This document shows, in pieces, positions 572-34,127 of a DNA stretch of 64,000 nucleotides. The stretch spans positions 806,001 through 870,000 of the forward strand of contig WIUZ02000017.1 in the NCBI GenBank assembly GCA_015956445.1, read 5' to 3'. The translations under genes and the position numbers were made by a program. Source of the DNA: Thelephora terrestris. Taxonomy: Eukaryota; Basidiomycota; Agaricomycetes; Thelephorales; Thelephoraceae. The notes below the pieces were generated by a model. It ran no database searches. It had not been told where the DNA came from and worked only from the letters and a program-made list of their open reading frames with translations. Positions within the stretch are counted from its first letter, which is position 1. Each line of letters opens with the position of its first letter.

Positions 572-2642
572 ATGGACGTCCCAATAGGAGACGGCACTGA
601 GATTCAACTCCCAGAGATCGACAAGCGCACAGTTATCGGCGTTTCTGTCGCCATCGCTGGGAACATCCTCATCTCGCTCGCCCTCAATCTCCAGAAACTC
701 GCTCACAGACGGAGGGATTTGGCTGCCGCGCATTTCGATGGACAGAAATCGCAACAGGATAGGGTCGATACCATGAGGCTGCCTCACCCACCGATGGAGA
801 GAGTCAGAGAACTTTCACAGGAAGGCGCGGAAGAGGACCCCGACGATATAGCGGGGGGAGAGTTGGATACAATTCGTGGCCCGCGGCTGGATGCCCTTGA
901 ATCTGAATCAGAGCCTCTTCTTCCTAGGGTTTCGAGCCATGGCTCAACGGGCCGAATCACCACGAAGAAACGTGCATCACTATTCCGCACCTTCTTCCCC
1001 ACGAAGCCACCTTACTCCGCCCGACATCCTCCTGCAATGCCGGCTACTCCGCGACGACAAACACCCGCGCGTCCACCATCGATGTCGCGTTCAAGCAGCA
1101 ATACCACAACGTCCTCGAGCGTCGTATCAAATGGGAACGAGGGCGATTACCTCAAGTCTAAGCTTTGGTGAGACTTATCTACCGCTTCCCGATCTGGATT
1201 TTGACGGGAAGCAGGTGGGCTGGGTTTTTGTTGATGAACGTTGGGGAGCTCGGGAACTTCATTTCATACGCGTTCGCTCCTGCCTCCGTCGTTGCACCCC
1301 TTGGAACCGTGAGTAGGAACCGGAGTCTGCACGATCGCAAAGGCCTAATTCACGCCTAGTCTGCTTTGATCGCCAACTGTTTCTTTGCACCACTCCTACT
1401 GAAGGAACGCTTTCGGAGGGTGAGCGTATGCATGTTTTAAACCACGTGATCTTACTAAATGTGGATTTTAGGTCGAGTTTTTGGGGATATTCATCTCCAT
1501 CGTGGGTGCTGTCACCGTCGTGTTTTCGGCCAACACCTCCGATACACGCTTAGACCGCGATGCTTTGATAGAAGCCATTACACAGCAGCCATTCATCATC
1601 TATTCTATCATCTATGTCGTTGGCGCTTTCATTCTGACAGGGCTATCAGCCAGCCAATGTGCCCGCGATTGGGTCTTTGTGGATGTCGGGCTATGTGCTC
1701 TCTTTGGTGCGGGGCACGTCCTATATAACTTAGAGGGCCTCTTTTCTCATCCGCCACAGGAGGGTTTACCGTGTTGTCCACCAAAGCCTTGTCGACGCTG
1801 CTCACAATGGAATGGATAAAAGTGTTCACAGAATGGATTACTTATCCAATTGTTGCCGTAAGTTTGCTTTATCACTCTATTCATTTCATTCCCCTTAAAC
1901 ACCATCACTTCTAGGTCCTCCTTGGGACAGGAATCGGCCAAATAAGGTATTTAAACCGTGCCTTGATGCGGTTTGACAGCAAGGTAATTGGCTGGCGTGG
2001 AAGTATTGAAGTCCCACTGAAGGTCGGCTAGATCGTTGTCCCCGCACAATTCGTGCTTTTTAACCTATCTGCCATCCTTGGCTCCGCTATCCTCTATGGC
2101 GACTTTAAGGAAGCCAGTTTCCACCAGCTCGTCACCTTCTTTTACGGGTGCGCCGCGACTTTCGGAGGTGTATACTTGATCGCAGTGTCTACCGGTCTGC
2201 AAGAAGAGGAACCTACCGTTAGTGACCCTGAATCGGCCACCGCACCCCCGACGCCAGATGTTCGGTTGGGAACCGTTGGGAGGCGGAGCAGGCACCTTGC
2301 TATGTTGGACACCGTCCGGTCCTCTCCATCATTGCGTAGAAAACTGAGCACGTCCAGCATGGTCGGGTTTTCCCCAGCTCAGGTAGGTTATCCACCTCTC
2401 GAATATTTGATAGGTGTTGACTGGCCCTGTGATAGCGCCTGCTTATCGTGCACTCACCCGTCGATGACGATGACATCCAACCGGGCCCCGATACCCGAAG
2501 ATGGACGATGAGCTGGGGTGATGAAATTCCAGACCGACTCCACACCCCTAGACGCACACCCCTGGCTCAGGATATCCAACTTCCTCCGCAACGCGTTCAT
2601 CAGGACGGCGAGGAGCTCGATAACCTATTCTCCCTACATTGA
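572..2642 (+). CDS. NIPA-family magnesium transporter
   Basis: Multi-pass membrane protein of the NIPA/DUF803 family, which carries Mg2+ in animals and is common in fungi. My eight-exon model is 572-1167, 1215-1308, 1360-1419, 1472-1706, 1760-1857, 1915-1983, 2032-2382 and 2436-2642, giving 569 residues with all phases matching. The first helix is [20 protein letters not shown], followed by the family's QKLAH. A roughly 150-residue low-complexity insert precedes YLKSKLWW, and then the core follows: [55 protein letters not shown] and [19 protein letters not shown]. The C-terminal tail is hydrophilic and ends after an acidic DDDD segment. The long loop after helix 1 is poorly conserved in fungi generally. 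Substrate is inferred from family only. Confidence 0.88.
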
Positions 2643-3092
2643 CAACTGCAGAGCCTCATTTATTAGCGTTGGGTATTCATCCCACATCATGGTTCCTCTA
2701 GACCGTTATGCGCCCGTGCTAATTTTTCGCTACTCGTTGGTTATTTTTCCGTCTGTCGTATGCGCGTAATACCATTTTATACATCAAGTAGGTAACATCC
2801 TGCCGTCACTCTCCTTATAGTATTCAATCCTAGTTCACCATTGGCTTCTTGGTGATCGGTGAAATGGTCGCTTCCTGTTCCTCCGATAGTCATGATCCAT
2901 GAGCCTCGTGCCGCACTGCTCTGGAACGTTCACTCTTCGCCTTGACGTCAAAATTCGGTCAAGTCGGTGTTGTCATCGAACCACAGCGTCTTACACTATA
3001 CCCCCACTCTATCCACCACTCTCGCGTCGCGCGAAGAGTAAATATCTACCAGGCTGGCTCCCAGAACGCAGAAAAACGAACCCGCAACGTTC
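2643..3092. other. Intergenic region, no gene seen
   Basis: About 450 bases between the NIPA stop and the UPF0303 start. It should hold the 3' UTR of the first gene and the promoter of the second. Short ORFs here lack codon bias or domain signal. Confidence 0.6.
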
Positions 3093-4062
3093 ATGTTCCA
3101 TGGTTTCCAACCTATGCAACCTACAGAAACGGAGCTAGCGTCTCAAGCGCTAGCAGAAGAGTCCAACTTTAGGTTTCCCTATTTCTCCGCCAACGACGCG
3201 GTCACGTTGGGCCTGTCACTGAGGAAGAGGTTCAGAGCCTCAACGAGGTACAGCAAAGGCAAGGGTTTGGTCATTTCGGTGCAAACCATCGCTGGTCACA
3301 CGCTGTTCGCTTGCACAGTCGGGGATTTGGGCGGTGTGTCTGGTGTGGGCGATGTGAGCCTGGACAGTTGGGGTGTGTTGGAGGGAATGGTAAATGTCGT
3401 GAAGAGGACAGGTCATTCGAGTTATTACGTGGAGAAGGGGATGAGCGCGATGTCCAAGGGCCAGGCTGGCTTACAGTCTGATTTGAGGGTGTATGGAGGA
3501 GGTTAGTGTGTTCGTCTTTCCGTGTTACTGTCAGCTTTGACGTTGTTTACGCGTCTCGCATGACATTGACAGCATTTCCGATCTGGCTGGAAGTACGCAA
3601 GCACACATCCCCCCTATTTTTGTGTGGAGACGACCTCACATCTGGTATTTCAGAACGCACTATGCTGCCCTATCGCCGTAATTGCCTGTTACTCCGGTTC
3701 AAGCAAGGATGACCATCACGTACGCAGCGTGGGCTTCATGTGCAAAATTATCTTCACTGATACTGGTTGTGATACAGTTGGTCGTAACATCGATCAAGGA
3801 CTTTCTTAAGAGACTCAGGGGTGCGGAGGCGGCCTCAGTCGCATATCCCCCAACAGAAGGAACGTCTGTTCCGCGACAGATTCCAGATCCGAGTATTGTC
3901 GGACAGGAATCCCTCCGCCGGCAGTCTGGAGTAGAATACGCACCGAGGCGTGATTCCGGTTTGCAGGGTTCCGGCCAGGCTGATCATGAATCACAGGAAT
4001 GGGTGACTGAACAACGGTCGGGCCTTGATTATTCGTCCGATGAGGAGCAGGGGAGGCAGTAG
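3093..4062 (+). CDS. UPF0303 / YBR137W-like (DUF336) protein
   Basis: Four exons (3093-3501, 3573-3592, 3654-3719, 3778-4062) give 259 residues. The second exon is a 20-base micro-exon whose phase fits on both sides. The first 170 residues match the UPF0303 fold related to heme-degrading HbpS/GlcG proteins: LGLSLRKRF, GLVISVQTIAGHTLFACTVGD, LDSWGVLEGMVNVVKRTGHSS, a GGAFPIW turn, CCPIAVIACYSGSSKDDHH, then VVTSIKDFL. Yeast YBR137W belongs to this family and has been tied to the GET tail-anchored protein pathway. The last roughly 80 residues are an acidic, disordered tail that yeast lacks. It converges on RIM1 with 89 bases between the stops. Confidence 0.8.
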
Positions 4063-4151: not shown

Positions 4152-4827
4152 TTAGTGTTCCTCCTCTCCCTTGTGTTCACTGGGATACTTGAGGACACGG
4201 ATGTTTTCTGAGGTACAGTTCATTTGAGCCATTGGTCAATATAAAGGAGCTGAGGGCCTACCGTGTCTCAGGAAGATCTGACGTTGAGCATTTGGGCTCC
4301 CAGCCTGGGCATCTGGGTCAGCTTCTCGGAGTTCATAGCCAGCTTCGACATAGACGTGAGCACCCTTGGGAATGGTGCGCAGGTATGTGTTTGAGGTGGT
4401 GCTGAAAGAGAAGATGGTGTGCCATGAAGTGGTGTGAGAAGGTCGCGCTGCGTTCCGTGGTTTATGAGGGATCCTTCGGCTGCTAAAATGAGGCAGAACA
4501 CTTACTGCCGTCGGCGTTAGGGGAGACAGGGGGGTAGTTATTAGTGGCCACGGTGTATCTGGGCAATTCATGAGTGTACAGAAGGAGCAGTAGAATTGAA
4601 CGTCAGGACTCACGTTACATATTCCTTGTCTGTCTTGGTTGTACGTGTCTCTGGGGCTTTACCCAGCCGCCCAATGAGGGTGAGCTTTGCCAGGTCAGAC
4701 GCTGAGGGCCGTGACGAGGAGAAGGCCTGCAAGTTATGAAGTGTTAAACAGTGTAACGGAGGCTGAAATTTTGACGTACACGCGACCCGACGCGCAGGGC
4801 AAGAGAGGAACGGGAGATTAACATCAT
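4152..4827 (-). CDS. RIM1: Mitochondrial single-stranded DNA-binding protein
   Basis: Five exons on the minus strand (4780-4827, 4614-4726, 4506-4558, 4262-4447, 4152-4207) give 151 residues with all phases closed. Exon 1 encodes a 16-residue Arg/Ser presequence (MMLISRSSLALRVGSR) joined to AFSSSRPSA, a typical mitochondrial leader. The OB fold follows: DLAKLTLIGRLGKAPE, KEYVTYTVATNNY, DGTRPSHTTSWHT, NTYLRTIPKGAHVYVEAGYE and RQIFLRHENIRVLKYP. Rim1/SSB coats single-stranded mtDNA during replication. The third intron has an acceptor (AACGCAG) inside an otherwise open frame; using it restores the conserved DGTRP-TTSWH stretch, which settles the model. A longer overlapping ORF runs upstream of 4827 but lacks a presequence. 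Confidence 0.9.
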
Positions 4828-4949
4828 AGAATTGAGAGTCTGAGGGTGAGGTTCCGCACGCGATGTGATCGAGGCGCTCCCTCCCTGTTGTGGAACTTCC
4901 CTCACTCAACGACTACACAAAACATTCTTTGGTTTGGAAAGCGACCCCA

Positions 4950-7430
4950 ATGTCACGACATAGACTAGTCCGCAATCTTGATTACAACGGTCAGCATGAA
5001 GACCTTCTAAGGCTTATCACACTAAAGCTCAACCGATCTCCCATGGTCAACTCCTAGCTGAACTCGAGGATTATGATGGTTTTTCAGACAGCCAAGAGGA
5101 AATGACAGAGGAGCAACATGGTACGCTTCGTCACTGTCTACGTGAACTTCCCCCACCCCTTATCCTCTTACAGCACAAATGATTGATGGCTTGGAACAAG
5201 TGCGCAATATGCTGGGTGATCAAGAGCAGTCAGGGTGCACCGACCAAGCCATCAGGGATGCTCTGTGGGAGTTCTTTTTTGACGTGGAGAAAAGCGTTGT
5301 TTGGCTGTTAGGTCCGTCCTATCCCCTGCATCCAAGTTGCGTGCACTGACGCCGTTATCGCCCAGAGGAGAAACAAAAGCGAGAGGCGGCTAAGGAACGA
5401 AAGGGTGAGTTGTGTTGATATCGTTTCCCCCACTTTCCCCGTCATCCCCCTTCGTCATATGTTCGGATATGTGTTTGGGCATCAGCTATGCTGTCAGATT
5501 GATGGCAGAGAAGGTGCATATCTTTCCAATTTTCCCCCACCCATCTTGTCGCATTTCCTCCCTCCCAACGCTTGCGACCTGTCACTGACATACTTCTTTC
5601 TTGCGATGATAGATGCAGACGGAAAACCTCTACCGCCTTTACCCCCACCCGATCGCGGGGATCTCCAATACGGTCCAACGGGTATCGTTCCACCTATGTC
5701 GGTGCCTGCGCCGATGCACCATCCAGATTATGACGAGTACGCGGACGATGGAGAATATTACCACCCCGACGACTACGGTTCCGTGGATTACGGATTGGAG
5801 GGCAATCGACTAAGCACTATCAGCGAGGTGACGGAGAGGTCGGAATACCCGAAACACTATCCCTCTGCCAGGCAAGTCGTCTACCGTGACTCGATATCAT
5901 CTAATACAGAATACGGGGCTTTTCGAGGTATGTGTCGCTGCCTGTGCATTAGGAAGTGTGTTCACATCCTTGACTAAAGAATCGCGGTTCACTGCAACCC
6001 CCCTTGTATCTGCGCCCCCTCTACCTCAGGATCACGACTCGGAGTCATCATTATCCACCCCGAGGCAGCGGAACGCCTTGGGGCTGGAGATGCAGACAAA
6101 GTATGATCACCCCTCTTCCCCGCAATTGCATCACCACCAGCATTACGACCAGCGCGAAAACTGTCCCCCCTCTCCCGCTACCACGGAGTCTACAATCCCC
6201 CCTCCGCCAATAGAGAAGAGCGTTGCAGGTACTCCGAGAAAATCGAGACTAACGGAACTCGCCGATTCGAGGTCCACTATGTACAGTGCGAAGAGCTTCC
6301 AGACCTTGAGTTCCCGGTCATTCGCGGTTGACAGTGCCTCCATCCTCACATACCCTATTCTCCGTCCCTCCCCAGCTTCCCGTCTATCTCTCAGCTCTGA
6401 TTTCGCGCCTTCCGAGGCTTCTACGTCGGATTCCTCTCACATACGGCGCGCAGTTGATGCAGCGATAGAACAAGAGCGTTTGGACCAGTTCCAGGCTAAG
6501 CCTGAGGGAGACCCCGAACGGTCAACGGGCAGATCGACAGATGACGGGTCGTCTACTGCTACGGAAACTCCCCGCCCGATTTCCCAGAAACAGAGCTCTC
6601 GCGGTCCATCCAAACTCGCGCTGCTAGCACAGTCAAAGGCGAAACAAAACCCGGAGACAATCGTTTCTTGGGTACGACCGCCGTCCGCGTCTACGCGCAG
6701 ATCTCGGGTGATAGAGGCTTCGGAACACAACGTCCGCACCAAGTTTGTTACTCCCATCGGAAACGGGCCTACTGCGACGACTGCGATTACGACTTCTTAC
6801 CAATCCTTGGGCAATCTCATGTCTCGAGGCGGCTCTGGCTTGCCGCCTTCGTTTCCACCTCCGACCGACGAATCGAGGTCGTCCCCTTCCCCCGTTTCCA
6901 CAACGCACACACAGCCTCGACCGAAGTCGACTCATTCACAGAGGCCTCCTTCAGTCAGTAAATCTACATCTTCGTCTACCCCTTCCAGGCCTTCGAAACT
7001 CGCAATGAAGATTAAACAGGCCCAGCAGAGTGGAATCCCCGAGGCAGATGTCATAGAGGACATGGGGGATCATGTCAAGCCAATATTCCTCCCGACCGGA
7101 GAGCCTAATGCTACGCCATCCCCCTTCGCGTCCGTTCTCCTTGACGAGGACGAGTCTGGGAAGAAGTCACGTCGGAAAAAGGACTCAGTCCGTAAATCAC
7201 GCCGCGACAATGGAGATGCACCCTCATTGCAGACGACCGATCATACCACGAACCCACCAGCATTCGCTTTCGACGTCCCGAGTCCGGACGACGTCGTTTT
7301 CAACGCCAGGAGGGGCACATCACTCTCACACCAAGCTGATTCCCGTACTAAATCTGGCTCCTCAGCTACATCCCGTTCATCATCCCACACCGCCTCTTCC
7401 CACCCCAAGCGTGTTTCATCTGCAGCGTGA
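4950..7430 (+). CDS. Putative SKI7-like isoform of the HBS1 gene (alternative terminal exon 5980-7430)
   Basis: Exons 1-5 of HBS1 can splice through the same GTATGT donor at 5928 into a 1,451-base exon at 5980, open to a TGA at 7428-7430. The product is 681 residues: the Hbs1 N-terminal domain plus a Ser/Pro-rich disordered tail with no GTPase. Two short repeated motifs stand out (PSKLALLAQSKA and PSKLAMKIKQAQQ). Skipping this exon joins exon 5 to 7608 in the same phase, so both products are in frame. In many eukaryotes Hbs1 and the exosome-Ski adaptor Ski7 come from one alternatively spliced gene (HBS1L isoform 3 in humans, Lachancea kluyveri among yeasts). The architecture here fits that, but no transcript evidence is available. 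Confidence 0.6.
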
Positions 7431-9631
7431 CAAACTTGTGCTGATAACTGTTCCCTTTTTTTCTGCTTCTGTTTCTGGTTGATGTGCCAATTTGCTGTTG
7501 CATGTCTGTCCCCCTCGCGATCATACATCGCTGTGCTACCAATTTCAATGTCGTTCGTTCTCGATTTTTCTCCTATCTGTCGTTTGACCACGTCCCTGTT
7601 GCGACAGCCACTGCGGAGCGCGAGAAAGCTAAGAAAGCAGCCCAGCGATCCACTCAGAGCTCGAGGATAGGGACCCCACCCGTGACGCCCAAGAAGAAGA
7701 AAGGAAGTATCACTGCGGGGGGAGTTGGGTCACCTCTGATGTCTGGGGCTTCGACTCCTGTTCGCCGCCCTCTGGGAGCCGAGAAACCGGACCAACAGCT
7801 ATTGGATTTTGTTGGACTGAATTTACAGGTTGAAGAGTCACAGATTGTGGAAGAACCACCAAGGGTTTCGCTTGCACGAGAGAAACTTTTGGAAGAAGTG
7901 ACCAGGGCCTTGCAGATTGGTGTGGATAACGGAAAGAAGGGCGTAAATTTGGTTGTTATAGGTAACGTATTGACAATCACAGGGGCATCTTCGATTTATG
8001 CTCACAGGGCCATTTTAGGTCACGTCGATGCCGGAAAGTCGACCTTAATGGGGAGAATGCTCTACGAACTCGGAAAGGTTGAAGAGAAAGAACGGCTTGC
8101 AAATGAACGTGCGAGTGGGAAAATGGGTAAGAGCAGCTTCAGCTGGGCGTGGCAGATGGACGGGACGGCCGAGGAACGACAAAGGTACTGTTTTGCTTTC
8201 GGACATAAACGAGTGCTAACCTCATATCGCGTAGGGGAGTTACTATGGACATTGCTCTCAACTCATTTTCCACCCCGCATCGACTTGTAACAATTCTCGA
8301 CGCGCCTGGGCACAGAGATTTTATTCCAAACATGATTTCGGGTGCTTCGCAAGCGGATTGCGCTTTACTCGTCGTCGATGCGTCTACGGGAGAGTTCGAG
8401 GCGGGCTTCGATAGAGGAGGGCAGACGCGCGAACATCTTGTGCTGGTTAGGAGCTTGGGGGTTTCTCAGGTCGTCGTGGCTGTGAACAAGTTGGACGTGG
8501 TCGGGTGGGACCGGTCACGGTATAAGGAGATCGTGGACGCGCTAAAACCGTTTTTGCTTCAGACTGGGTTCCAGAACTCGAAAATCAAGTTTGCTCCCGT
8601 CGCTGCGATGGTTGGGGTGAATTTGATCGACAGAGACGGACCCGATGGAGCTGAGTTGAGGAAGTGGTACCAGGGACCGACCTTGATTGCCTTGTTAGGT
8701 ACGCGGTTGCACTTGAGTACCTTCAGCGATTTGACCCTTCGTATCCTGATAGATCGACTCGAACCCCCTGCCCGGGACATTACCTCACCCTTCCGGTTCC
8801 CGATTTCGAACGTCTTCAAGGGTTCTGGATCCGCCACTGGCGTTACGGGGCGTGTGTGCTCAGGTGCCGTTCAAACCGGGGAGAAACTGAGGATCGTACC
8901 GGGAGATGAATACGGTATCATAAAAAGTTGGGCAATCTCTATGTCACAGAGTCGGTGCTGTGGCTGAATACTCTGACTAGTGATTTCGTATGACGGGGAT
9001 AACATCCCTTGGGCAGCGGCTGGGCAAACTGTTACTTTGTACATGACGGCCGTCGACCCGATTCATTTGAACGTGGGGAGCATATTGTGCTCGCCGACAT
9101 CGGTGGTACCTCTTGCGACGGTTTTCACGGCGACAATCATCGTGTTCGATATCACGATGCCGATAACAGCTGGGACGTCGGTACGCCTCAATTTCTCCAA
9201 ATGACCAGTCAACTACTTCAGAATTAACGATCCTTTCGGATGTCTCGTTTCTCCTCTTACCCTAGGTCGAGTTGTTCCACCACTCGCAAGATACACCCGC
9301 TTACGTGTCAAAGCTCTTGTCAACGGTCGACCGTTCGACGGGGAAAGTGAAGAAATCCCCGAGGGTGCTAACCAAGGGCCTTTCGGCGGACGTTCAGATC
9401 ACCCTCCGCTCTGCAGGGGGCACCGGAAAGGCGTACTCGGTGCCCCTTGAGACATTCAAGACCAACAAAGAAATGGGAAGGGTTTTGATTAGGAGGGGCG
9501 GTGAAACCATTGCCGCCGGTAGGTGGCATTTCTTAGTCTTACTGCCGTGGCCTTTGTCCCACGGTGGGAAGAGGGATGACGCGTGCCTGACCTAATTCAC
9601 CGCAGGCATTGTGCTATCCATTGATGGCTAG
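4950..9631 (+). CDS. HBS1: HBS1, translational GTPase of ribosome rescue (No-Go decay)
   Basis: Hbs1 pairs with Dom34/Pelota to split stalled ribosomes. Exons for the Hbs1 form are 4950-4989, 5058-5120, 5174-5311, 5366-5404, 5613-5927, 7608-7961, 8019-8184, 8235-8698, 8753-8914, 8981-9180, 9266-9518 and 9606-9631, giving 739 residues with every phase matching. The N-terminal Hbs1 domain is seen at roughly residues 30-100 (MIDGLEQVRNMLGDQ, AIRDALWEFFFDVEKSVVWLL). The eEF1A-like GTPase shows GHVDAGKST (P-loop), QRGVTMD (switch I), DAPGH (switch II) and NKLD, followed by two beta-barrel domains and the C-terminal GIVLSIDG. A long extra exon (5980-7430) lies between exons 5 and 6; see the separate entry. 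If it were spliced in, it would add 477 codons through a poor GTGTTT donor. Confidence 0.92.
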
Positions 9632-10094
9632 GATCACAAATTGGCCCAGTTTCGTTTGGTCCGTGGTCAGCTGTTGCGCCTGACTTGGAAGAAAAAGAGG
9701 CCATGATGTAGAGGGACTCGCCATCTGTATTGTGGGTGGTAGTAGTCACGACGGGGGAGGGTTGCGCTTTATGTACAAGAAAGAGTGAAATAGAGGGACG
9801 GGAGAGAACTAGGAGACTCGGACAAATAACTAATCAACACAGAGATCATATACAGGAAGTAGCACAGATAGGAGCAATGGGGGGGGGGGGGGGGGGGGTG
9901 TCTCTATCGACAACCTACAAAGAAATCGCAGCGTAAATGCGAGAACCAAGAGATGGAAAGCAAAGCAGTCTATGTGAGGGAAAGCCAACAGGTGACGAGC
10001 GGGGAGATGATAGCAGGAGGGAGATTTGAGGCAAAGAAGGATCGAGAAGCGGAGGAAGGCGCAGGGTGTGGGCGTCCAAGTGGCGTCGTAGGGT
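9632..10094. other. Convergent 3' intergenic region with a G20 tract
   Basis: About 460 bases between the HBS1 stop and the CRP1-like stop. It holds both 3' ends and an uninterrupted run of 20 G at 9879-9898. No coding signal is seen. Confidence 0.7.
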
Positions 10095-11395
10095 TTAGTC
10101 ATGGGACTTTTCCCTGTGGTGCTCCTTGTCCTTCTCATGAGTGAAGATGTGTTTGACTTTGTGAATAAAGCTATCCCTCTTCTTCTTGAAGCTGCTTTTC
10201 CTGGAGAGGGTATTACTCGGACTCGAAGTGGGAGAAGAAGATGTTGACCCAGGGAAATATGGCCTCTTCGGTGTTGTTGGTGGGGAGGGCAACTGAGGAG
10301 GGGTTGCTGGGATAGCCGGTGGAGTGTGAGTCTTATCTTTTACAGGAGTAGGTGGAGGCTGTTGAACTGGCTCCTCTACACTGGCGATACGGTTTGTAGT
10401 CTCATCGAGCTGTTTGACCTCAGGTTTGAGTTCCTTTTTCTCTTCTTCCTTCTTCTCGACGGAGAGGGTGTTGGAAGAGGACGTGCCAGTCGAAGCCTTC
10501 CTCGGGTTGTTGATCGGGAGAGCGTGGGTAGAGGGAGTATCAATGTGCTTTGGAAGCTCGACAACCGGAGGCTGCTTTTCGACCACATTTGGATCGTTTA
10601 CTGGGACGATGACGAATGGTGACTTAAGGTTCGGAGGCGTGGGCAGAACGGCAGGGATAACTTCCGAAGGGGCCACCTTGTGGGTCTAGATAAGGGTGTC
10701 AGTGTATCAAGCAACGATAAGGAGAAAACATACCTTAGCAGGAGGCGTATCTACAGGTTTAGTGTCGTTAACCAGAGCAACGGGAACAGGCGGGGCTGGA
10801 GGAGAGGGCTCCTTCTTTTCGACGACGGGGGTTTTGTCCTTGACAGGCTGTTCGGGTTCAGCGGGGACTTTGACGCTACCCTTGTCAGTCGGCTTGAGAG
10901 TGGGAGCAGGAACTTGTTTTTCTTTCTCTTTCACCGGGACGGGGGCGATCACTGGTTCTCGTGCGGCGGGTGGGTCGTAACGGGGCGTGTCGAGTTCTTT
11001 AGGTTTCGTGGGGGCATGATATACGTTATTAACGTTTCCTCTCCAGTCGGCCTCAGTGGGCGCTTGGTCGATAGTGGCCCAACTGCCATCGATGACGAAT
11101 TTGTACAAGACCTTTTCTTCCCAGGGAACTTTGACAGTGGCAGAGAACCCAGTCGGACCCTTATTCATCCGAACGGAACGAGACCACTATTGGAAAAAAG
11201 AAAACGGGTGCTCAGGTATTTGCAAAGCGGTCGGGGGTTGTGCGGGCGTACCTGATCAAAGCTTCCGGTCACAATGGCCTCCTTGGCGTTGTATGGCCTG
11301 CAAAGAGAGGAAAAGGTTGGCCAGGGAGCAGGCGGAGGGGGGAGGGAGGCAAAGCGGACTCACCATTTGAAAACCACCTCGTGCAAATCGCTCAT
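10095..11395 (-). CDS. CRP1/MDG1-like protein with AMPK-type glycogen-binding domain (CBM48)
   Basis: Four exons (11364-11395, 11252-11297, 10734-11186, 10095-10685) give 373 residues. The first roughly 90 residues form a CBM48/AMPK-beta glycogen-binding domain: MSDLHEVVFKWPYNAKEAIV, TGSFDQWSRSVRM, GFSATVKVPWEEKVLYKFVIDG and WRGNVNNVYH. In yeast this domain heads Crp1 and Mdg1, linked to cruciform DNA binding and pheromone signalling. The remaining 280 residues are Pro/Lys/Glu-rich and disordered, ending in a basic stretch (KKKRDSFIHKVKHIFTHEK). The function in this organism is unknown. Long ORFs on the opposite strand are antisense shadows of the proline-rich part. Confidence 0.82.
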
Positions 11396-11653: not shown

Positions 11654-12841
11654 ATGTCAGAACGAGGAAATATGGAGCGAGAAGAATTTCTCGACGACCA
11701 AGATCCTCTAAGACATCTCAGATCTCCGGACGCAGACGGCGTGCTCGTTCCAGCCCAACCGCCTTCAATCCTCGACCAACGCACGGATCTTTACATCCCC
11801 GGCATCAACCCCGGTGACCCAGGCATCACTGTAAAACTCGCTCTCGACGCCGCACCTGGCTGCGGAGGAATCGCTTGGCCTGCCGGGGAGGCGAGTGTCT
11901 GATTTCGAACGTTCGGTCAAGGCGTCTGGGAAATCTTATCATCGTCCTTGCGGCGCTCGATCCTCAGGTCCTCAGTTCATATCTCCTCCAACGAGGCCCT
12001 TCGTTCCTCAGAACCAAAACCGTCCTCGAACTAGGCAGCGGGACTGGTCTCGTCGGCCTCGTAGCAGGTCACATCGGTGCCGAACATGTCTGGATATCAG
12101 ATCAAAGGTCCGTCTTATAAATTGCTCACCCTTTCTCCATCTCTTCACTTTCATTTCCGAGGAGAGAGGGGGGGGGTGGTGGCTGGGCCTCGCGTGATTG
12201 TACGCTTACTTACTGCGCCCGTTTTTTTTTTGCTATCTATGCGGATACTAGTCCTCTCCTGGACATCATGCGCCAGAACGTTCGACTTAACTCTCTCTTA
12301 TCAACCGTGACCGTGGCTGAACTCAATTGGTGTGGTGCTTCGCTCTCTTTCCTCTCTCTCTCTCACCCGTCCTCGGCATCGAGCGGGCAAAGAGTGACCA
12401 TCATCGTTTTACCACTCCGTGATCTTTCTCTCATACCAGGGGTGACCCGCTCCCACCGTCTATCCCGCAAAAATTCGACGTGATCCTTGCCGCCGATTGC
12501 GTTTACTTTGAGCCGGCTTTCCCGCTCCTGGTCAAAACCCTCAAGGATCTCGTACCCGACAAATCCGTCGAGGTCCTCTTCTGTTACAAGAAACGGAGGA
12601 AGGTAAGTTTCTATCAGCTTGAATTGAGTGATCCAATCGTCTTATCGAACCGGTCTTGTGCAGGCGGATAAACGTTTCTTCGCCCTACTGAAGAAAGAAT
12701 TCACCTGGAACGAGGTGCTTATCAGAGAAGTCATTGGTTATTCCCTGCTGATCACCGACTCACTTCCAGGTCACTGATGATGTAAACCGTGAAACCTACA
12801 CACGCGAAGCGATTTCACTCCTCAGTCTTGTCAGGAAATAG
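11654..12841 (+). CDS. EFM6: EFM6-like protein-lysine N-methyltransferase
   Basis: Seven-beta-strand methyltransferase of the METTL21/EFM6 group, which methylates a lysine of translation elongation factor 1A. Six exons (11654-11890, 11968-12107, 12252-12329, 12440-12602, 12664-12714, 12770-12841) give 246 residues with phases intact. Motifs: GGIAWPAGEVLSSYLL, the SAM-binding TVLELGSGTGLVG (motif I), WISDQSPLLDIMRQN, LNWGDPLPP, DVILAADCVYFEPAFP (the family's D-x-x-Y-region) and LFCYKKRRKADKRFF. The first intron appears to use a GC donor (GAG|GCGAGT) with an AG acceptor, the only splice that restores the WPAGEVLS stretch. Confidence 0.85.
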
Positions 12842-32135: not shown

Positions 32136-34092
32136 ATGGCCGCGGCTGAGGTTATCGACCTCACAGGTCTCCCCTCCTCATCTCCTGTTCGCCTCCACAG
32201 CAGCGACCGAACGCATGACTCAGAACATCCGATAGGACAACCAAAAGATCCAGCGATTGTCAAGGATACAGCTGCCCCCGTCGAGGAAGGAGAACTTCCA
32301 CGGGTCGTGAAACCGACTGCCACCCCGCAAAAACAACGGAAACGTAAGAAATCTCAGCCGGACCCTGCGGCAACAAAAGAGGAGAACGTGGAGACCGGCG
32401 ACAAACGGCGAAGGCGAGGGGCTGAACGAGATGAACCGCCTCGAGGTAGTTCTCGTTCTCCGGATCGAGCTACACAAGGACACACTCTACGCGAAATGCC
32501 TCCGGAATCTCTGTTTTTCGTGGACGACCAGCCTGCGGGTATCAGGGATTCTTACGCCTCCGCCACACTGGCTGGGCCGTCCACAACTCAAAGAAACGAT
32601 GGGCTTGTGCTCCCTCCCCACGTCAATCTTGCTGGTGGATCCTCTGAAACCCATGAACCCCCTCTTACTTCCTTCTCGGACGCAGAGGAAGGCGAGGAAG
32701 ACTTCATTGATTATCTAGACGTTGATGGAGATCGTAGTGTGTGTATACCATCCACCGAGCCACTCCCACTATGTACACTGATCCAGGGAATGAAATTTTG
32801 AAAGATCGGTGTCACTCGTTATTTCCACGATACCCGCGAAATTGATGCCAAGACCCGGTTTGTCTGCAGAAACTGTGGCGAGGAAAGCAATCATAAAGCC
32901 AAGGACTGTCCTCACCAAATCGTTCGTTCCTCTGTCTTTCTCCGTAGGATCCCACCTCACAAATCGCAGTGCCTGACTTGTGGTGCAAGAAACGAGCACT
33001 CGACTCGTAGTTGTCCGATCAGCAAAACCTGCTTCACTTGTGGCATGAAAGGACACATCAACAAAACTTGCCCAAACCGATACGCTTCCCGCGATGACCC
33101 TTCGCGTGCCCTTGACGACTGCGATCGTTGTGGTTCACGGTCACATTATTCGAAGGTTTGGACACGGCAGCTTCTATCGGAGAGCACCCTAACCACCTCT
33201 GCAGGAGTGTCCGACCCTTTGGCGGATATATGACTACTTGTCCGATAAGGAGAGGGACATGACACTCAAAGACAGAGAGATGAAGAGGGACCTCGCCTCA
33301 GGTTTGGGAGGGGAAGGTTATATCGGTTCGGAGGATTGGTGTTTCAATTGTGGGGACGCGGGACATTTGGGAGATGTAAACCAACCGCCGTTGATTTGGT
33401 CGAACCAACACTGACACTGGGATCCCTAGGACTGCATCGAGACTCCCCACCAGCATGACATTCCAAGAGAGCCATCGGCATTCAGCGAGTACAACACCCG
33501 CTCTGGTCCCTTCTTTGAACTGCGCGTTTCACCCTCGAAGAAGTCAGGGAAGAAACGCCAACGTGACTTGCACGACGAGGACCACTGGGGAGACGGACAT
33601 GGGACTGTAATTCCCGTCAATGTCGGGAAACAAGGGAGAAAAAAGGAACGACAAAGGATGGAGATCCTGGATGCAAAGACGAGGGAAGATGAAGGCGACA
33701 ACTTCTTCTCAAGGAATGTAAAGGACAGGGCAACAACGAAGAAAGAACGGGGCGATCACAAAGTCAAAAATGCAGGGATTGTGATCAAGGGCGCTGCTGA
33801 AAGGTTCTCTCGAGATCCTCCGGGATACAAACCTCCTTCCTTGCAGGAGCGGTTGGGTCCCCCCCAAGATCGACGTTATGTCGATTTCCCTCGCGGTGGA
33901 GGCGACAGGCCGAAAGACGACGGCAGATATAGAGATAGGGATAGGGGAAGGAATGAGGGTCGGGACAGGGATGGAGGTAGGGGCAGAGACAGAGACAGAG
34001 ACAGAGATAAAAGTAGAGGTGAAGACAGATATCGAGACGGGGGTCGTGATAGAGGATCGAGGTACCGTGGTGGTTATCAAAGGCCACGATAA
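32136..34092 (+). CDS. AIR2: AIR1/AIR2-like zinc-knuckle subunit of the TRAMP complex
   Basis: Four exons (32136-32738, 32805-33155, 33205-33375, 33430-34092) give 595 residues. Five CCHC zinc knuckles are present: CRNCGEESNHKAKDC, CLTCGARNEHSTRSC, CFTCGMKGHINKTC, CDRCGSRSHYSKEC and CFNCGDAGHLGDDC. Air proteins bring RNA to the Trf4/5 poly(A) polymerase and Mtr4 helicase so that the nuclear exosome can degrade it. The N-terminus is acidic and disordered, opening with VIDLTGLPSSSP, a SUMO-interaction-like motif. The C-terminus carries an RD/RG-rich tail (RDRDRGRNEGRDRDGGRGRD) like those of RNA-binding splicing factors. The second intron has a weak GTTTGG donor, but it is the only junction that completes the fourth knuckle. 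Confidence 0.88.
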
Positions 34093-34127
34093 TCCGAACG
34101 TGTATTCTCTCAGTCCCTGAACGCGTA

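Follow-up and report, generated by a model that had tools for sequence, protein, structure and literature searches.

Why does a fungal HBS1 gene contain an interval of 1,680 nucleotides (nt), when its other ten introns measure 50-208 nt, and what might the long open frame within that interval encode? The gene lies on the forward strand of a 64-kb stretch of the Thelephora terrestris genome (contig WIUZ02000017.1, positions 806,001 to 870,000; hereafter the window), drawn from an assembly of 40.6 Mb in 60 contigs; all coordinates are those of the window and the features are collected in Table 1. We argue that it is very probably a single SKI7/HBS1 gene, in which a distal acceptor would lead to Hbs1, the GTPase of ribosome rescue, and a proximal acceptor to a Ski7 protein that lacks a GTPase and would act as adaptor between the RNA exosome and the Ski complex; both are proteins of RNA quality control. 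A first-pass annotation of this DNA had proposed such a dual gene, and the proposal is now supported by two Ski7 motifs in order and at near-human spacing, an HBS1_N domain shared by both products, an intact Hbs1, and the failure to find a second copy. From the sequence, we infer that both messenger RNAs (mRNAs) are made.

Two predicted in-frame products from one donor

Joining position 5927 to 7608 produces a complete protein of 743 amino acids (aa), in which Pfam identifies HBS1_N at residues 12-88 (expectation value, E, 2.3e-17) and then GTP_EFTU (E 6.3e-48). Its best match in the PDB is Hbs1l (5lzw_jj; 439.8 bits, E 1.4e-130), followed at lower scores by 3mca_A (355 bits), the best elongation factor 1-alpha (300) and the best eRF3-type chain (280); we take 5lzw to be mammalian, 3mca to derive from S. 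pombe and the EF1A chains from archaea. The protein consists of HBS1_N and then EF-Tu-like GTPase domains, and is closer to Hbs1 than to eEF1A or eRF3. Given these domains and this best match, skipping the interval yields an ordinary Hbs1 of normal length, as the first-pass annotation had anticipated.

The same annotation held that the donor at 5928 could join either 5980 (AAG/AATC) or 7608 (CAG/CCACT) in frame, and when both joins are computed the frame is indeed kept. The join of 5927 to 5980 gives a protein of 681 aa, comprising the same HBS1_N domain and a tail of 482 aa that reaches a TGA before any GTPase; Pfam recognises HBS1_N alone. On sequence grounds, then, the gene has two in-frame choices, Hbs1 or a Ski7-like protein. 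We propose that one donor (5928) would serve two acceptor choices: use of the distal acceptor at 7608 would skip the whole interval and lead to Hbs1, while splicing to 5980, or to a different proximal acceptor that is in frame and no further than 6541, would attach HBS1_N to a disordered-looking tail ending at TGA 7428-7430.

The frame beginning at 5980 is open for 1,451 bases up to that TGA, just as first described, and this is not easily explained by chance. With independent, identically distributed (iid) bases at the composition of the stretch, the probability of 483 open codons is 1.3e-7; among 2,000 sequences, each of 1,680 bases, simulated by a first-order Markov model trained on the stretch itself and read in three frames, the longest open frame averaged 165 codons and reached at most 415.

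SKI7 motifs in the tail

The tail contains a Patch 4-like motif, with a SKI7-like motif upstream of it. The consensus given for the latter is A+PShFAahL (PMC6143672), from which the sequence here, ATPSPFASVLL, departs with T at the + position and P at the h position. For comparison, PDB chain 9g8m_E (Isoform 2 of HBS1-like protein) has ARPSAFASTLCL at 194-205 and ITPFDFKSASPDDIVKANQKKAFTR at 243-267, and chain 8qca_E (Superkiller protein 7) carries NFNRPSPDDIIQSAQLNAFN; the former is presumably human and the latter yeast. These chains were fetched from the PDB with short typed lures, after phmmer with tail queries had given none, and the E-values of the lures (1.4, 3.9e-9 and 1.1) are a measure of what was typed rather than of the window. 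The A that opens the first motif and the S of SPDD stand 57 residues apart here and 58 apart in the human chain. Shuffling the exon protein 200,000 times never produced the strict Patch 4 pattern and produced A.PS.FA..L 20 times, and each SKI7-motif pattern has a single occurrence in the six frames of the window.

Both motifs have described partners. The docking site of the SKI7-like motif is Rrp43 and that of Patch 4 is Csl4 (PMC6143672), and in human SKI7 residues 555-572 lie at RRP43-MTR3 and residues 602-616 at CSL4 (PMC11540850), positions that would agree with the spacing in chain 9g8m_E. A zebrafish Patch 4 peptide is reported to have pulled down the exosome (PMC7924785), while a caution comes from human cells, in which Patch 4 is described as neither necessary nor sufficient for exosome recruitment (PMC6143672). 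The tail of the Thelephora protein would presumably bind the exosome through both motifs.

The first-pass annotation had instead drawn attention to two PSKLA repeats in this exon. Both copies are real: PSKLA occurs at 6606 and 6990 in the six frames of the window, with no third site, and when the 482-aa exon protein was shuffled 200,000 times, at least one copy appeared in 421 cases and two copies in none. They are not the strongest evidence for Ski7; the pieces containing them matched no Ski7 in the PDB (by phmmer, the first repeat gave no match and the second no SKI7 match). That the repeats are Ski-complex-binding helices, corresponding to the S1/S1' motifs that Marshall et al. (2013, PMC3597508) describe, is a lead.

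Evidence that weighs against a dual gene

Several results count against our interpretation. Searches of the PDB by phmmer with the whole tail, the 681-aa protein and three pieces returned no SKI7; specifically, a 66-aa piece with Patch 4 matched nothing and a 59-aa piece with the SKI7-like motif found no SKI7, what ties the tail to SKI7 is its motifs and the distance between them. The patterns were based on published motifs with a tolerance chosen after the sequence had been seen, and looser versions are commoner in the 200,000 shuffles (602 with PS.FA..[LP], 68 with the SPDD core). The reading frame is not marked out by its synonymous codon usage: 211 of 2,000 randomised versions scored as high. 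The acceptor at 5980 is AAG, whereas the HBS1 form has CAG or TAG at each of its 11 acceptors; the closest branch-like motif is just 5 nt upstream of it, and its score of -2.45 falls under ten of those 11. A search of viral and prokaryote contigs found no close relatives of the locus, which is unsurprising for a gene from a fungus. Finally, a 2008 study confined Ski7p to some Saccharomyces (PMC2613156), a view that was revised by Marshall et al.

Disordered-looking tails such as this one would be expected to diverge fast, and likeness would for that reason persist in the motifs only. With regard to the weak acceptor, nine further in-frame acceptors are present up to 6541; all ten sites (5980-6541) keep the frame open and precede the first motif, and five of the nine outscore 5980, the best being 6376 (9.22) and 6214 (7.89). 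These scores come from rough position weight matrices (PWMs) built on 11 sites each, with the gene's own donors scored leave-one-out.

Where the SKI7 mRNA might end

The dual reading can be refined by supposing that the proximal acceptor opens a terminal exon, such that cleavage and polyadenylation of the SKI7-like mRNA take place in 7431-7607, in the manner of human HBS1LV3. We put this a little short of an even chance. There is precedent in human HBS1L exon 5, which is described as able to act as a last exon (PMC3597508, Fig S5 legend), and in the ski7-specific exon 5 of zebrafish, which is terminal (PMC7924785); the stop codon, moreover, ends at 7430, immediately before the stretch concerned. 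However, neither TGTA nor AATAAA, the latter even with one mismatch allowed, is present in the 177 bases of 7431-7607, whereas the 329 bases after the HBS1 stop contain six AATAAA-like sequences and three TGTA. This contrast is only mild evidence, because the two stretches differ in length and composition (A makes up 14% of 7431-7606) and because fungal polyadenylation signals are weak.

With no poly(A)-like signal in this stretch, the SKI7 mRNA may instead extend to the 3' end shared with HBS1, and if so the choice is simply between a proximal and a distal acceptor. That the SKI7 form reflects competition of a weak proximal with a stronger distal 3' splice site, and has no poly(A) site of its own, we likewise put a little short of an even chance. 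If it is true, the GTPase exons would form a 3' untranslated region of the SKI7 mRNA, about 2 kb long and containing introns; this mRNA would be exposed to nonsense-mediated decay, and the level of SKI7 could be set by decay factors. The basidiomycete type of gene would then use the mechanism of ascomycetes with a single stop codon added, and would form a bridge towards the animal form.

Just upstream of the HBS1 acceptor, positions 7426-7605 are free of AG (182 bases from AG to AG), the longest such run on the plus strand of the window, although given its pyrimidine richness a run of this kind is rare at only about the 1% level under the iid model. A CTGAT branch-like motif at 7441 lies inside the run and is possibly a distal branch point that helps to regulate skipping. 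The longest CT-free run in the window (AG-free on the minus strand) is at 33890-34107, with 217 bases between sites.

Other origins for the long open frame

It is improbable that SKI7 arises here from an internal promoter and start codon within the long interval, and so lacks the shared N-terminal domain, which is the arrangement described for Candida albicans (PMC3597508). The tail does have Met residues upstream of the motifs, and acceptor 5980 is weak, but several in-frame acceptors permit use of the shared start, and the published account of two basidiomycetes is one of exon skipping versus inclusion (PMC3597508).

Marginally more doubtful still is a fused protein, in which the tail would be a cassette exon spliced onward to 7608, with Ski7 followed by the GTPase. 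In Lachancea kluyveri the use of an alternative 3' splice site, ahead of the region for the GTPase, separates a long Ski7-type isoform from a short one (PMC3597508), and in-frame donors are available here, at 7282, 7345, 7375 and 7411 within 7250-7430. The last of these, GTGTTT, was singled out in the first-pass annotation as the poor donor that onward splicing would need; it is in frame and poor (-2.23), but not the sole choice, as 7345 (-1.95) and 7375 (-2.72) would also serve. These three sites, all after Patch 4, score below every one of the gene's 11 donors (lowest 0.08), and the remaining site, 7282 (2.06, above one of the 11), cuts Patch 4. Past the TGA the frame differs from that of the 7608 exon, stops by 7670 and never enters the GTPase, and analogous onward introns annotated in Cryptococcus and Ustilago have been argued not to be true introns (PMC3597508). 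Because of the TGA and the poor onward donors, a protein without a GTPase is the likely product of the proximal join, in line with what was first suggested.

A chance open frame in a long intron, without any SKI7 function, would suit the uninformative codon usage and the phmmer searches that found no SKI7 for the tail, but is scarcely credible in view of the open-frame statistics, both Ski7 motifs standing in order at near-human spacing, and the precedent in other fungi (PMC3597508).

Relation to known SKI7/HBS1 genes

Dual genes of this sort have been described before in other fungi and in animals, and the Thelephora locus, in which the motifs and the splice-site anatomy are clear, is another of them. 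Marshall et al. describe one alternatively spliced SKI7/HBS1 gene across Ascomycota and Basidiomycota, and for Cryptococcus and Ustilago they propose a truncated Ski7 without a GTPase, like the metazoan gene, by a mechanism that their account calls not entirely clear (PMC3597508). The case of C. neoformans and U. maydis resembles ours in having a single gene, a Ski7 stretch that is skipped to give Hbs1, and a proposed GTPase-less Ski7-like protein; it differs in that the onward intron was annotated and disputed there, while here onward donors were scored and are poor, and the likeness is one of description and not of residues. With human HBS1L/SKI7 the locus shares nearly the same motif spacing (57 against 58 residues), but phmmer aligns no part of the tail to human SKI7, and a separate poly(A) site is not evident here. 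With L. kluyveri and Aspergillus nidulans it shares one intron with proximal and distal acceptors, but the long form in those species has Ski7 motifs plus the GTPase part (PMC3597508), while the proximal form here stops before the GTPase. Since it has the two exosome-binding motifs and a stop codon in frame but lacks a good onward donor, the locus is most easily read as encoding an animal-like, GTPase-less Ski7, and it adds another case of this kind.

Copy number and partner genes

A six-frame search of the assembly located HBS1_N at one place and found no separate SKI7/HBS1 paralogue. The tail protein matches itself in the genome, its other four matches having E 0.036 or worse. Six other matches to the GTPase exon of HBS1, with E from 8.7e-37 to 3.2e-4 and identities of 30-63% over parts, are probably eRF3, eEF1A and their kin. 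Among partner families, EXOSC1 (CSL4) and Ski2_N were found in the genome, and eRF1_3 matched two loci. The better fit to pelota is the locus on C45, although it falls below the family cut-off exon by exon. Pfam TPR_22, a possible Ski3 family, matched nowhere, and since the controls likewise gave no match this is uninformative on Ski3.

Table 1. Features of the SKI7/HBS1 locus in window coordinates
Feature	Position	Strand	Remarks
HBS1 gene	4950-9631	+	12 exons with the 5927-7608 join
Shared exons 1-4	4950-4989, 5058-5120, 5174-5311, 5366-5404	+	Start codon and HBS1_N (UBA-like) domain
NMLGD in shared exons	5206-5220	+	Similar to VLGD/E, a published hallmark (PMC13232801)
Shared exon 5	5613-5927	+	Ends in the common donor GAG/GTATGT
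Proposed short intron of the SKI7-like form	5928-5979	+	52 nt with a weak AAG acceptor; another site, e.g. 6214 or 6376, may be the true one
Putative SKI7-specific coding stretch	5980-7430	+	483 codons including a split first codon; stop TGA 7428-7430
First PSKLA repeat, PSKLALLAQSKA	6606-6641	+	Putative role
Second PSKLA repeat, PSKLAMKIKQAQ	6990-7025	+	Putative role
SKI7-like motif, ATPSPFASVLL	7110-7142	+	Human ARPSAFASTLC; counterpart docks on exosome RRP43-MTR3 in human SKI7
Patch 4 motif, AFAFDVPSPDDVV	7260-7298	+	Human PFDFKSASPDDIV; counterpart is the CSL4-binding segment
Pyrimidine-rich stretch before the HBS1 acceptor	7431-7607	+	Contains TTGAC, a branch-like motif, 19 nt before the AG
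HBS1-specific exons 6-12	7608-7961, 8019-8184, 8235-8698, 8753-8926, 8981-9180, 9266-9518, 9606-9631	+	Translational GTPase; stop TAG

Elsewhere in the window

Just downstream of the HBS1 gene there is a run of 20 G (9879-9898), which could be a length-variable or error-prone homopolymer. Seven open frames elsewhere in the window were scanned with Pfam, two of them without a match. Weak matches below the Pfam cut-off were to HbpS-like (3042-3503, plus strand; E 0.0094) and SSB (4610-4912, minus strand; E 0.006). The others were to the magnesium transporter NIPA (1472-1816, plus strand; E 4.2e-8), the AMPK1_CBM domain (10707-11186, minus strand; E 4.6e-10) and the lysine methyltransferase family Methyltransf_16 (12423-12668, plus strand; E 1.8e-13).

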